This document shows positions 1,310 to 21,268 of a stretch of DNA of 22,804 bases, piece after piece. The stretch is from a virus. The notes below the pieces were generated by a model that saw only the letters and a program-made list of their open reading frames with translations, did not search any database and was not told the origin of the DNA. The stretch spans positions 1 to 22,804 of IMG/VR virus record IMGVR_UViG_3300021077_000157; one strand, written 5' to 3'. Every line of letters starts with the position of its first letter. The stretch's first letter is position 1. The translations under genes were made by a program, and so were the position numbers.

Positions 1310-4060
1310 TCATCGCTGCCAGAGGATACGCGCGTCCTCCAGTGGGATCGCCACGCCGTTGCAGTGCGGGATCACTCGGGCCGTATAGTCCGACGGCGAG
1401 CGGTCCGCAGAAACAACGGCGCTGTAAACGTAGCTACCCGACGCGTCGGCCAGTTGGCGAACGCGCTTCATCTCCTGCTGCACGGGAGCACTGCCCATGA
1501 CCCCGTCGGCGTAAAGCTCGACCCGTACTCCCTTCGGGTCGAGGTCATTGAGATGGAGCTGGACCTCAAACACGTGTTGTTTGTCTTTGGTCTCCAACTT
1601 CACTTCGCCGAAGCGTAGCGTAGTCCATTTCTGTTCCAGACCGTGCTGCCAATCGACCACTTGCTTGCCGATTGCGCCCTTATTGGCGATGCGCGAATGG
1701 TAGGTGGTAGCAGCCGGGAGGTAGTGTTGTTCGGTGTATTCGCGCACCGTACGGGTGGCGGAGAAGCGCGGGGTCAGCCGCGCCATGCTTTCCCGCATCC
1801 GCGCGACCCAAGCGGTGGGAATGCCCTTATCGTCGCGGGCATAAAACTCAGGGATCACCTCCCGTTCGAGCCGCTCGTATAGCGCCTCGGCTTCCGCCGC
1901 GTCCCAGGCCGGATCATCGCCATGCTCCTGACCATCCCCCAACGCCCATCCCACCTCCGGGGCGTACGCCTCCGCCCACCAGCCGTCCAATTCCGATAAA
2001 TTGATGCCTCCGTTAACCAGCACCTTCATGCCGCTCGTTCCACACGCCTCCCAGGGCCGCCGGGGTGTGTTCAACCAGACATCGACACCCTGCACCAGGT
2101 GCTCTGTCAGGAGCATATCGTAATCACTGAGGAAGATCGCATGAGGACGGGCCTCGGTTTGACGAATGAAGTGTATCCATTCCTGAATCAATGCCTGTCC
2201 CGCCGCGTCTGCGGGATGGGCCTTGCCTGCAAGGATAAGTTGCACCGGTCTCTGCGGGTTGGTTAGCAGCCGAATCAGTCGCTTCGGGTCGTGCAACAGC
2301 AGATTCGGTCGTTTGTAGGTGGCGAAGCGGCGCGCAAAGCCCAGTGTCAAAGCATTGGGATCGAAGAGATGCCTCGCCTCCTCCACCGACTCGGGCGACG
2401 CGCCGGCTGCGGCGTAGTGATGGGCCAGGCGCTGGCGAGCATAGTCAATGAGCGACTTGCTGGCGGCCGTGCGAAATTGCCAGAGCTTGGCGTCAGAGAC
2501 GCGGCGAATGTCCTGCTCCAGGGTTTGCGTCGTCCCCAGCCAGCGGTCCTTGCCACAGGCTTCCGTCCAAAGATCGTCGGCCGCCGCCGAGTCCCAGGTT
2601 GGCACGTGAACTCCGTTAGTCACGTGTCCGATGGGAACTTCGTCCGCCGGCCAGTTTGGGAAGAGAGGCTCGAAGAGATGCCGGCTGACTTTCCCATGCA
2701 AGCGACTCACGCCATTCACCGCCCCGCTCCCCCGGATCGCCAGATAGGCCATGTTGAAACTTTCCGACGAGTCTTTCGGATTCTGGCGGCCCAGGGCCAG
2801 CAAATCGTGGACGGTAATGCCAAGCTTATCCTGCGCATACCGGCCGAGGTATTGCTCGATAAGAGCCGGCGCGAAACGGTCAAAGCCCGCGGCGACGGCC
2901 GTGTGGGTCGTGAAGAGGTTCCCCGCTCGCGTGGCGGCCAGCGCGACTTCAAAGGGCTGCGCGGTCTCTTGCATGAAACTGCGGGCGCGTTCCAACACCG
3001 CGAAGGCGGCATGCCCTTCATTCAGGTGACAGACTTCCGGCCGGAGGCCGAGCGCGGCCAGCAGCCGCCAGCCGCCAATCCCGAGCACCAGCTCTTGCTT
3101 GAGGCGCAACTCCGGCCCGCCCCCGTAGAGCTCGCTGGTGATGCCTCGATGAATGGGAGAGTTCGCAGCGTCATTGCTGTCAAGCAGATAAAGTTTAATT
3201 CTGCCTACCTGAACCTGCCATACACGAAGCCAAACTGAATATCCCAAGGTTGTGAGATCTGTATCGGATAAAAGGCCGGGCAAGCGTGGTGAATACCACA
3301 TTCTAATCTGTTGGTTGCCGGCTGGTGTAGGGATAATATTAATATTATTACCCATAAGCCGATAACGCATATTATAGACGCCGTAGATAGTCGATGTGGA
3401 GTTGGGATAGACATATTTGTTTCTCTCAATGAAATCAAATTTCAAAAGAGTTACCCAAGCGTTATTGCTTGTATTTATACCCAAATCCATCCCGGCTAGC
3501 TTATAGAACGCCTGAGAAGGTGCACCAGTGCTATTAGGATAAGTACCACCGAGATAGTTGTCATAGCCATTTGGCACCGGATAGTTTTGCGTCGTTCCGT
3601 TAGTATTGATAAAGACATACTGCTGAGCAAAATAGTCTTCATATGCTGTAATCAGAATATCGTAAAGCTCATACATGGATAAGCGGATCATCGAATTCCA
3701 TTCAGTTGTCAAAACAAACTGGGAATTGACGCGGTCGGCTGTCTGTTGGGCTCTAAGTCTTAGTTCAAATAGGGACATCTCAGATGGCGGGGCCGCTACC
3801 ATCTGAGTTACCGACGAATAAACAGATGTCCCGTCGGAATTTGTTCCCGCTACCTGGTAGTAGTACATAATACCCACACCAGGCAGCGAATCTATATAGC
3901 TGGAAACAAGTCCCAAAGTAGCGACAGTGTTGAAATTCACACCATCCGTCGATCTTTGAACCAAGTATCCAGTAGCATTTAAAGCCCCGTTCCACGTCAG
4001 CAAAATATTACCGTCGCTTTGCTCAGAGCTTAAATTCTGCGGCTGATATGGAACGGCCAT
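1310..4060 (-). CDS. Phage virion protein N-terminus fused in frame to alpha-glucan phosphorylase C-terminus
   Basis: This 916-residue open frame has two unrelated halves. Residues 1-275 look phage-like: a fibronectin type III-like domain (about 5-90, with LTWNGALNATGYLVQRS), then an alpha/beta region ending in MWYSPRLPGLLSDTDLTTLGYS, a pattern I associate with head-tail or tail adaptor proteins. The start ATG follows AGGGGG by 6 nt and lies 10 nt from the upstream structural gene. Residues 276-916 are a GT35 alpha-glucan phosphorylase of the DUF3417-bearing kind: GITSELYGGGPE, CHLNEGHAAFAVLE, FARRFATYKRPNL, and EACGTSGMK with the probable PLP-binding lysine K679, ending at a native-looking PLEDARILWQR. 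About 200 N-terminal phosphorylase residues are absent. GC content and codon use change near residue 290. Phosphorylases release glucose-1-phosphate from glycogen; this hybrid probably does not exist as one protein. Confidence 0.8.
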   Translation of the reverse strand: MAVPYQPQNLSSEQSDGNILLTWNGALNATGYLVQRSTDGVNFNTVATLGLVSSYIDSLPGVGIMYYYQVAGTNSDGTSVYSSVTQMVAAPPSEMSLFELRLRAQQTADRVNSQFVLTTEWNSMIRLSMYELYDILITAYEDYFAQQYVFINTNGTTQNYPVPNGYDNYLGGTYPNSTGAPSQAFYKLAGMDLGINTSNNAWVTLLKFDFIERNKYVYPNSTSTIYGVYNMRYRLMGNNINIIPTPAGNQQIRMWYSPRLPGLLSDTDLTTLGYSVWLRVWQVQVGRIKLYLLDSNDAANSPIHRGITSELYGGGPELRLKQELVLGIGGWRLLAALGLRPEVCHLNEGHAAFAVLERARSFMQETAQPFEVALAATRAGNLFTTHTAVAAGFDRFAPALIEQYLGRYAQDKLGITVHDLLALGRQNPKDSSESFNMAYLAIRGSGAVNGVSRLHGKVSRHLFEPLFPNWPADEVPIGHVTNGVHVPTWDSAAADDLWTEACGKDRWLGTTQTLEQDIRRVSDAKLWQFRTAASKSLIDYARQRLAHHYAAAGASPESVEEARHLFDPNALTLGFARRFATYKRPNLLLHDPKRLIRLLTNPQRPVQLILAGKAHPADAAGQALIQEWIHFIRQTEARPHAIFLSDYDMLLTEHLVQGVDVWLNTPRRPWEACGTSGMKVLVNGGINLSELDGWWAEAYAPEVGWALGDGQEHGDDPAWDAAEAEALYERLEREVIPEFYARDDKGIPTAWVARMRESMARLTPRFSATRTVREYTEQHYLPAATTYHSRIANKGAIGKQVVDWQHGLEQKWTTLRFGEVKLETKDKQHVFEVQLHLNDLDPKGVRVELYADGVMGSAPVQQEMKRVRQLADASGSYVYSAVVSADRSPSDYTARVIPHCNGVAIPLEDARILWQR
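3228..3245 (-). other. Joint between phage and bacterial DNA
   Basis: The phage-like text ends around LTTLGYS (residue 275, near 3236) and phosphorylase text starts at VWLRVWQVQVGRIKLYLLD. Left of it the DNA is GC-rich and has long open antisense frames, typical of high-GC coding DNA; right of it the DNA is AT-rich. The position is set by protein similarity and could be off by about ten codons. No transposase, att site or long repeat is visible at the joint. Confidence 0.75.
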
Positions 4061-15959: not shown

Positions 15960-16310
15960 ATGAACACAATACAAGCAGCTGAATTTACTGGTATTCCTGA
16001 ATTCCTATTAGTCCGTATGCGAGCAAGGGAAACTACCTCGATTAAGAGCGGTCCGCCGTTCTGTAAGAAGATGGGACGCAATGGCGAGCCCCTTTATACA
16101 TATTCTATTCGAGACCTACGCCGATGGATGAAGATCCGTAAATGCCTGATTACTGCCGGGGATGCTGCTGAAATCCTTGGGATAAGTAGAGAAGATCTGA
16201 TCAATATGCATGGACTCCAAGGAGTCGATATCAATAAGAAAACACATAAAGGTCGCCTTGTTATCGATAACGGGCATGCTATTTACGTGTGGGTACCAAA
16301 GCTATCATAG
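15960..16310 (+). CDS. Tandem helix-turn-helix (excisionase/MerR-like) regulator
   Basis: A 116-residue protein with two similar DNA-binding modules. Module 1 (3-59): TIQAAEFTGIPEFLLVRMR, then GPPFCKKMG and YTYSIRDLRRWMK, the order seen in HTH_17/excisionase proteins (HTH, 'GPP' turn, 'Y' strand, final helix). Module 2 (63-113): LITAGDAAEILGISREDLIN, wing-like GRLVIDNGHAIYVW. Two modules in one chain may let a monomer span a site. AAAGG lies 8 nt before ATG 15960. It is divergent from the late operon and so placed to control it. Codons 100-113 lie inside a 41-bp sequence that recurs at 17000-17040. Confidence 0.7.
   Translation: MNTIQAAEFTGIPEFLLVRMRARETTSIKSGPPFCKKMGRNGEPLYTYSIRDLRRWMKIRKCLITAGDAAEILGISREDLINMHGLQGVDINKKTHKGRLVIDNGHAIYVWVPKLS
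16257..16297 (+). repeat. 41-bp direct repeat, copy 1
   Basis: This stretch, from CTTGTTATCGATAAC to GTGTGGGTACC, recurs at 17000-17040 in the same orientation with a single C/T difference (C at the AACGGG position here, T in the other copy). It encodes residues 100-113 of the tandem-HTH protein. Confidence 0.9.
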
Positions 16311-16999: not shown

Positions 17000-17040
17000 C
17001 TTGTTATCGATAATGGGCATGCTATTTACGTGTGGGTACC
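17000..17040 (+). repeat. 41-bp direct repeat, copy 2
   Basis: Matches 16257-16297 at 40 of 41 positions. Here it does not belong to an HTH gene; its right 19 bp form the last six codons and the stop of the sigma-factor gene on the minus strand (VPTRK, stop). Confidence 0.9.
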
Positions 17041-17546
17041 CGCCGTATCCCGTTAACGTTATTCAGCACTCTTCTCTTCGTCTCAGTCACTATCTGACTA
17101 ATGCGTGCCTCAGTTAAGCCACACATCTCCGCTATTTCAACCAAGTTATATCCATACTTGTGATGCAGTACAAATGCGATTCTGTTAACCGGCGGGATTG
17201 TCCTAAAGTATTTATCGATGAACAGCATGTCAGCTAGATTCTCAGGATTAGGACGGTTACACCTTACCACTTTCTCACTGAGGTCAAGAGCTTTTAGCGT
17301 CATCGCTTTTTTCCCTTTTTGACTCTTTGTTCCTACCCCGGTTGGCGAGACTCTCCCATATTGGGATCTTAGAAAATCTGAATAGCGGTGCCTCAGATGA
17401 CCGACCATCTCGTCATTCTCTAGAGCATAGAGGACTACCTCTTGGGCAAAGTCGTCAGCATCGACTTGACTACCTGGCCAAGAGCCACGTTTTAGCGCAT
17501 AGAGATAAGCGCTCAGATGAATTGCTTTTGCTTTTTTGGGGTCCAT
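17022..17546 (-). CDS. Phage sigma-70-like transcription factor
   Basis: A 174-residue protein with the layout of a small sigma factor. Residues 28-60 (VDADDFAQEVVLYALENDE, then LRHRYSDFLRSQYG) resemble part of region 2. Residues 110-160 are region 4: IDKYFRTIPPVNRIAFVLHHKYGYNLVEIAEMCGLTEARISQIVTETKRRV, including the region 4.2 HTH (about 134-157) that contacts a -35 element. The linker is basic. It probably redirects host RNA polymerase to phage genes, or acts as a regulator with a sigma-like HTH. No ribosome site precedes ATG 17546; a -10-like TGCTAAACT ends 6 nt upstream, so the mRNA may be leaderless. Its last six codons lie in the 41-bp repeat. Confidence 0.8.
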   Translation of the reverse strand: MDPKKAKAIHLSAYLYALKRGSWPGSQVDADDFAQEVVLYALENDEMVGHLRHRYSDFLRSQYGRVSPTGVGTKSQKGKKAMTLKALDLSEKVVRCNRPNPENLADMLFIDKYFRTIPPVNRIAFVLHHKYGYNLVEIAEMCGLTEARISQIVTETKRRVLNNVNGIRRVPTRK

Positions 17547-20701: not shown

Positions 20702-20944
20702 AAAATCTCCAATATTGATTGAAATAGTTGACTGATTTATTGACTTTTTCGGGGGATGTAGTGTATCTAAAGCACATCGGACACCAGTACTAGTGGTCGT
20801 TCGGTAGAGCCTCTTACAGTGGTTAGCGTCACTTAAGGGGCTCGATATTTAATACCCCCTTCTACCGCACCCGGAATAGAAACTCTACCAAAATTAGATA
20901 TTTGAACTGATTGTAAAAAGATGTGAAATAATATAAAAGTTGGT
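20702..20944. promoter_or_regulatory. Non-coding region with inverted repeats, possible origin
   Basis: No gene seen. It holds TTGACT twice (20728-20733 and 20740-20745); the second pairs with TATCTA (20764-20769) at 18 nt as a plus-strand promoter. GGTAGAG (20803-20809) mirrors CTCTACC (20883-20889), and AAGGGG (20835-20840) mirrors CCCCTT (20856-20861) with AT-rich loop sequence. ACCAGTACTAGTGGT (20783-20797) has 4-bp mirrored ends. TATAAA at 20932-20937 lies just before the structured RNA. Such clustering beside an initiator gene fits an origin. Confidence 0.4.
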
Positions 20945-21125
20945 AAACGTGATGAGCAGCACGGGAAGCAGGGTTGCCTGCGAGCAATAAACTTTGTCGG
21001 AATTAGCAAGCCGATAGCCCTAGAGACGTGCCCGGTCAACGTGACAGTGAAGCAGACAGGCCGTAAAGCCGGATAGATGCAAGATATGGCTGTAGGTAGG
21101 AGTCGCGACCTACCTCATCACGTTT
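20945..21125 (+). ncRNA. Candidate structured non-coding RNA closed by a 12-bp helix
   Basis: AAACGTGATGAG (20945-20956) and CTCATCACGTTT (21114-21125) are perfect reverse complements 157 nt apart. Inside are helices GCACG/CGTGC (20959-20963/21027-21031), GCAGG/CCTGC with a GTTG loop (20968-20981), a 6-bp TGTCGG/CCGATA stem (20995-21016), GTCA/TGAC (21035-21045), ACAGGCC/GGCTGT with a bulged G (21056-21062/21088-21093) and GGTAGG/CCTACC (21095-21114), stacked on the closing helix. A TATAAA box ends 7 nt upstream and an intrinsic terminator follows at 21212. No protein frame with a ribosome site covers it. I do not recognise an Rfam family: not tRNA, tmRNA, 6S or RNase P. Confidence 0.6.
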
Positions 21126-21211
21126 CCCCTTGCTCCCTAACTCCCCTTATTGTAAATATTCCTTCGGCTCCCTTCCTGTTCGATAGTTAGTGATCATACG
21201 TCGGAAAAAGT

Positions 21212-21245
21212 CTCTATTTTGGTGGTTCTAATAGAGGCTTTTTTT
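21212..21245 (+). terminator. Intrinsic terminator
   Basis: CTCTATT (21212-21218) pairs with AATAGAG (21230-21236) around an 11-nt loop, then GC and seven T. The other strand has the same stem followed by ACTTTTT, so it may work both ways. It would end the structured RNA transcript and insulate the RHH gene promoter. DNA between 21126 and 21211 is pyrimidine-rich with nothing recognised. Confidence 0.75.
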
Positions 21246-21268
21246 GCGTCTTGTTTTCCCTTCATATA

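Follow-up and report, generated by a model that had tools for sequence, protein, structure and literature searches.

The question raised by this locus is what kind of element occupies positions 20945-21125 (+ strand) of a viral DNA of 22,804 nucleotides, the whole of which is referred to here as the window. A preliminary description, made from the letters of the window, had proposed a discrete structured RNA of no recognised family. The stretch can now be assigned, with near certainty, to a real structured RNA family, which is large, occurs in more than 100 unrelated phages and has apparently not been described before.

The RNA element in the window

The RNA is intergenic, adjoins a gene for a DnaD-like initiator and lies 8.3 kb away from the terminase. 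All of its parts are on the + strand. It is closed by P1 (20945-20956 with 21114-21125), which is a perfect 12-bp helix, as originally noted, and reaches 15 nt if one mismatch is allowed. A 2-nt linker (20957-20958), CA in the window and usually CG elsewhere, leads to P2 (GCACG at 20959-20963 with CGUGC at 21027-21031). Between P2 and P3 (AGGGUU at 20970-20975 with AGCCCU at 21016-21021) lies a conserved internal loop. The 5' side of this loop, GGAAGC (20964-20969), corresponds to the invariant columns G17-C22 of alignment A1, and its 3' side, AGAGA (21022-21026; elsewhere GGAGA), falls in conserved columns of the same alignment. The strand then runs through a variable arm, P4 (21032-21095), in which the members of the family are not alignable, and into the P5 hairpin (21096-21113), GUAGG-AGUCGCGA-CCUAC, which adjoins P1 and has an 8-nt loop with the family consensus NGUNGCGN. 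A -10-like TATAAA (20932-20937, + strand) can be read in the sequence, ending 7 nt before P1, and a terminator hairpin with a T-run (21205-21250, + strand; 14-nt arms at 21205-21218 and 21230-21243) follows downstream, both as reported in the preliminary description. The promoter of the window is poor, a -35 of good quality being absent upstream of the RNA.

By itself the 12-bp helix is weak evidence, because shuffled windows give a mean of 0.32 perfect 12-bp inverted repeats with a loop of at most 200 nt (maximum 2), and the window holds a single one. The minimum free energy (MFE) of the window RNA is -56.2, compared with -49.9 for shuffled sequences (z -1.60), and 14 of 200 shuffles fold equally well. 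The folding energy of this RNA alone is unconvincing, and it is the comparison of homologous sequences that is decisive.

Several other features of the window were observed. Contig IMGVR_UViG_3300021182_000130 matches it and is identical across the 8 kb compared. The intergenic stretch to the left of the RNA, 20740-20940, folds better on its + strand than shuffles do (z -2.83, 1/200). It also contains CACCAGTACTAGTG, which is nearly palindromic; this may be an operator or another structured element. A 41-bp direct repeat (16257-16297 and 17000-17040) is 97.6% identical within unrelated surrounding sequence. On the - strand, 1310-4060 encodes a 916-aa protein similar to carbohydrate (glycogen/starch) phosphorylase (PF00343, 1.2e-23), an unusual metabolic gene for a phage, and 17022-17546 has weak similarity to sigma-factor region 4 (PHROG, 7.9e-5).

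Relatives in phages

Searches with the Rep and RuvC proteins returned the same phage only. When the window RNA was compared with phages by BLASTN, the only matches were 33 nt long and due to chance, and a query made from the consensus core had no match in phages or plasmids. The terminase protein led to 21 loci, one of which, L007 (terminase about 71% identical), carries a divergent copy of the RNA with compensatory changes in three helices relative to the window. Pattern scans uncovered an extended family and two contigs of cellular origin. One is a MAG of Dependentiae; the other, from Peiella, is a prophage-like locus whose RNA adjoins terS/terL. The window RNA is of this extended type and matches model R1 over its full length at 92.6 bits, the window being part of the training set of that model.

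A BLAST match in Pseudomonas phage PotUPM1 revealed a compact type, which has lost P3 and whose P2 is capped by GAANGCAGA. This type was retrieved with a 19-base P2 pattern from at least 120 viral contigs, and only one or two of 80 compact loci checked do not show P1 and P5 with a full-length model match. Five cultured phages were confirmed by the model, namely Pseudomonas phages PotUPM1, Persinger, Orimi01 and vB_PaeS-D14H and Ochrobactrum phage POI1126; AUS531phi, vB_PaeS-D14P and OQ658365 have lower model scores, of 30-41 bits. Matches to the P5 pattern at L026-L033 and to the core pattern at L049, L066-L068 and L070-L077 resemble chance and were set aside, as was a match in A3Wally that lies inside a CDS and scores 7 bits. 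A P5-like hairpin, GTAGGAGTCGCGACCTAC, is found at about 465-495 of two 4.2-kb contigs (L030 and L035), without the remaining RNA, and is probably unrelated.

The covariance models of Rfam 15, which include GOLLD, ROOL, OLE, HEARO, the group I intron, C4, 6S and others, have no match in the window at either gathering or permissive thresholds, and at permissive E-values no match at the RNA was obtained for any of the loci compared with them (19 extended, 17 compact, 18 cellular). The element thus remains, as it was first called, of no recognised family. A description of it was not found in the literature searched, which comprised open-licence PMC papers, and an earlier description elsewhere is possible. 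Structured RNAs whose function is not known have been met in phages before; this family is to be regarded as new and without a known relative.

Conserved structure

In alignment A1, of 24 extended members, P1, P2, P3 and P5 covary and 91.5% of cells are paired. The covariation score is 0.610, compared with 0.180 for shuffled and at most 0.110 for slid controls, and changes on both sides occur in 20 of 23 pairs. They include 9 of the 9 aligned pairs of P1; P3 covaries in 4 of 4 modelled pairs, and P5 in 5 of 5 in A1 and 4 of 5 in A3, while P2 of the window is a double change relative to GCGUG/CACGC elsewhere. Alignment A3, of 35 compact members, has 96.5% of cells paired and a covariation score of 0.536 against 0.117 for shuffled controls; as its members were fetched by P2 alone, the covariation of P1 and P5 in A3 is an independent test. 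The wobble bias favours the RNA strand, with G-U to A-C ratios of 11:3 and 10:4. These compensatory changes bear out the proposal of a real, discrete structured RNA. Two findings had been named in advance as evidence against it: helix-breaking substitutions without compensation, in place of which the homologues show compensatory changes, and a conserved reading frame, where none is common to the members. Among the inner pairs proposed earlier, P2 and the P5 hairpin beside P1 stand, and GCAGG/CCUGC, which forms a hairpin in the MFE structure, gives way to P3 as the pairing that is conserved. Relative to the MFE, the fold of the family is about 3 kcal/mol less favourable.

The linker between P1 and P2 is 2 nt long and that between P5 and P1 is absent in alignments A1, A3 and A4. 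The loop of the P2 arm is invariant, and the P4 arm is structured but not alignable across the family. The alignments thereby define a four-way junction laid out as a tRNA cloverleaf, in the order P1, linker, P2, P4 and P5, and this layout suggests a tRNA-like scaffold with an exchangeable arm. The family shares with tRNA (RF00005) the four-way layout, a first strand followed by a linker of 2 nt, arms resembling the D and T arms, and a last arm of 5 bp that runs into the closing stem with no linker; it sometimes lies beside tRNA genes, and some P4 arms hold T-arms. Unlike tRNA, its closing stem is 9-14 bp in many members and no CCA is encoded, the T-loop (UUCRANY) is replaced by the 8-nt consensus loop of P5, and an arbitrary P4 stands in place of the anticodon arm. 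ARAGORN and cmscan gave no tRNA or tmRNA match at the RNA. The idea that a palindromic P5 loop might serve as a homodimer kissing site was dropped, because AGUAGCGA and other common loops lack such symmetry.

Pieces of tRNA are found within P4. A tRNA T-arm is present inside 4 of 113 arms, where 0.013 would be expected, and none occurs in antisense. Pieces derived from tRNA lie in the P4 arms at L161:528-675, L212:2227-2373, L213:11667-11831 and L185:4361-4490, and by eye L161 contains a degenerate tRNA-like stretch. About 8 nt separate the end of the RNA from tRNA-Asn in L046, and the copy of L158 is embedded in a tRNA array.

Cellular copies

Comparison of the genomes places the RNA family both in phages and in one bacterial clade. 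In the alphaproteobacterial family of G196, exactly one copy is detected by pattern in 28 of 75 species and by model in 29, one of them weak; elsewhere it is rare (Dependentiae 1/101, sampled Alphaproteobacteria 2/289, Pseudomonadota 2/399), the counts of the model survey being lower bounds because few candidates were scored per genome. No BLAST match was obtained in 5,426 E. coli genomes. The copies of the G196 family align with a mean column identity of 81%, P4 included, and are preceded by one conserved gene in 17 copies and by an HlyD-type gene in 6. Within this set there is almost no variation in the nested helix S1 (the structure tested had one hairpin one column off), and helix S2 (GGCCAU/AUGGCC) shows compensatory variation by eye. 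In the cellular orthologues L262-L289, a P4 pseudoknot is possible, with ACGCAC/GUGCGU interleaved with GGCCAU/AUGGCC.

Genomic context

For the 75 compact members that have a gene on either side, the orientations of the flanks are near random (++ 27, +- 18, -- 17 and -+ 13). Neighbours vary between terminases, integrases, tRNAs and lysis or recombination genes, none of them constant. No neighbour family recurs, each PHROG family matching at most 2 of 114 neighbours; PADLOC gave no enrichment of defence families beside the RNA, and no mobility gene linked to it was found among the neighbours. The specific link to replication that had been proposed earlier, as an origin RNA or primer, finds no support, the relatives being without a constant neighbour; the protein decoy, suggested at the same time, may still hold. 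Beside terL, the window and L006 have an empty gap, whereas in L034 and relatives with related terminases the corresponding gap is filled by the RNA, in antisense. Several phages carry two copies, and in L043 and L184 these have the same P1 sequence and a different P4. A phage gene for an alliinase C-terminal/aminotransferase protein (L112:10242-11219; PF04864, 1.1e-47) lies downstream of tandem copies of the RNA.

The family shows possible transcription signals of its own. -10-like hexamers occur 3-8 nt before P1 in 23 cases, compared with 8.9 expected (0/500 shuffles), and in 13 compared with 4.0 in the compact set; this promoter signal is a statistical one. Terminator-like hairpins follow in 10 of 111 members, with 0.8 expected. 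The discrete RNA suggested in the preliminary description is supported, and a start at P1 is probable. Across the genomes compared, position and orientation prove independent of the neighbouring genes, from which it follows that the RNA most likely acts in trans. Unrelated neighbours, near-random orientation and the hexamers before P1 together point to an autonomous and probably trans-acting RNA rather than a cis-leader.

Alternative explanations

A cis-acting leader, be it a riboswitch, an attenuator or a put-like antitermination element, would control the gene downstream. Of some 28 extended members, about 18 do sit directly upstream of a gene start, many of them 10-60 nt before an SD and ATG, and in some phages this may indicate a leader role; in the window the RNA is followed by the terminator and then the rightward operon, and in P. 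aeruginosa phages it precedes an exonuclease operon. As a general account, a leader is nonetheless unlikely, given that the downstream neighbour is on the opposite strand in 35 of the 75 compact members, that in the extended members L034, L041, L054, L059 and L061 the RNA runs opposite to both flanking genes, and that the downstream genes are unrelated, one copy even preceding a tRNA. The put RNA of HK022 is a cis-acting element of about 70 nt with two hairpins. The family resembles it as a phage RNA near a promoter and, in the window, upstream of a terminator, and differs from it in its near-random orientation and in the many copies with nothing co-directional downstream; no constant orientation upstream of a regulated gene was found. 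A constant core with a variable and exchangeable P4 would also suit a regulatory small RNA whose P4 pairs with host or phage mRNAs, a reading that is rather doubtful in view of the structure of P4 itself and of the closed cloverleaf, which is unusual among base-pairing small RNAs. Presence or absence at one locus, near-random orientation and second copies are what a selfish RNA cassette, kept by its spread and of no benefit to the phage, might display. Such a cassette is improbable: no target-site duplication was found at the window copy, there is no linked mobility gene, and the core is invariant over very distant phages and a cellular copy is fixed, both of which indicate a selected function.

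A packaging RNA like the pRNA of phi29 comes to mind from the size range and from the frequent nearness to terminase, roughly ten members lying within about 3.5 kb of it, but is very unlikely. In the window and many other genomes terminase is distant, the terminases are of unrelated types with no constant association with one packaging ATPase, copies also lie on bacterial chromosomes, and the family is without Rfam homology to pRNA. Least probable of all is an element that acts as DNA, such as an origin hairpin or a protein-binding or recombination site; the intergenic inverted repeat beside the DnaD-like initiator gene of the window would fit it, against which stand the one-strand G-U bias, the variable helix sequences and positions unrelated to replication genes. 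A group I intron was set aside, and its Rfam model has no match at the RNA. GOLLD and ROOL are associated with phages and, like the present family, are conserved structured RNAs without settled function. They are, however, much larger than the RNAs of this family, unrelated to them in structure and not matched by them in Rfam. Both have been described as large ornate bacterial RNAs (PMC12286853).

Proposed role and meaning

The best explanation is that the element is a small RNA gene, autonomous and probably acting in trans, and that it belongs to an RNA family widespread among phages. Transcription would start at P1 in many members. In the modelled fold, P1 would stack on P5 and P2 on P4, and the loops of P2 and P5 may meet as in the elbow of tRNA; this contact stays a model because the loops are too conserved to covary. 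The constant core may be recognised by a putative RNA-handling factor, placed in the host because the RNA has no phage gene as a constant companion, and P4 might present an exchangeable cargo. As a decoy or adaptor, the RNA could then occupy or misdirect the host factor to the benefit of the phage, and one bacterial clade would retain a fixed copy for its own use. This chain as a whole, from an autonomous trans-acting RNA gene to a core bound by a host factor and a P4 that serves as cargo, is tentative and is put forward with somewhat less than even confidence. More speculative, and on balance not likely, is that these RNAs are phage-wide tRNA-like scaffolds that engage a conserved host factor through their constant core and offer P4, exchangeable and sometimes a piece of tRNA, as bait.

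A structured RNA found in more than 100 unrelated phages, several of them cultured, is thus absent from Rfam. Its function is directly approachable, since covariance models, cultured phages and a cellular orthologue are now in hand. If the bait reading is true, the RNA would be a modular device for anti-defence or takeover, diversified by the swapping of an arm, of which one bacterial clade has its own fixed version, and a tRNA-like scaffold with a swappable arm would represent a new phage route to the manipulation of host RNA machinery.
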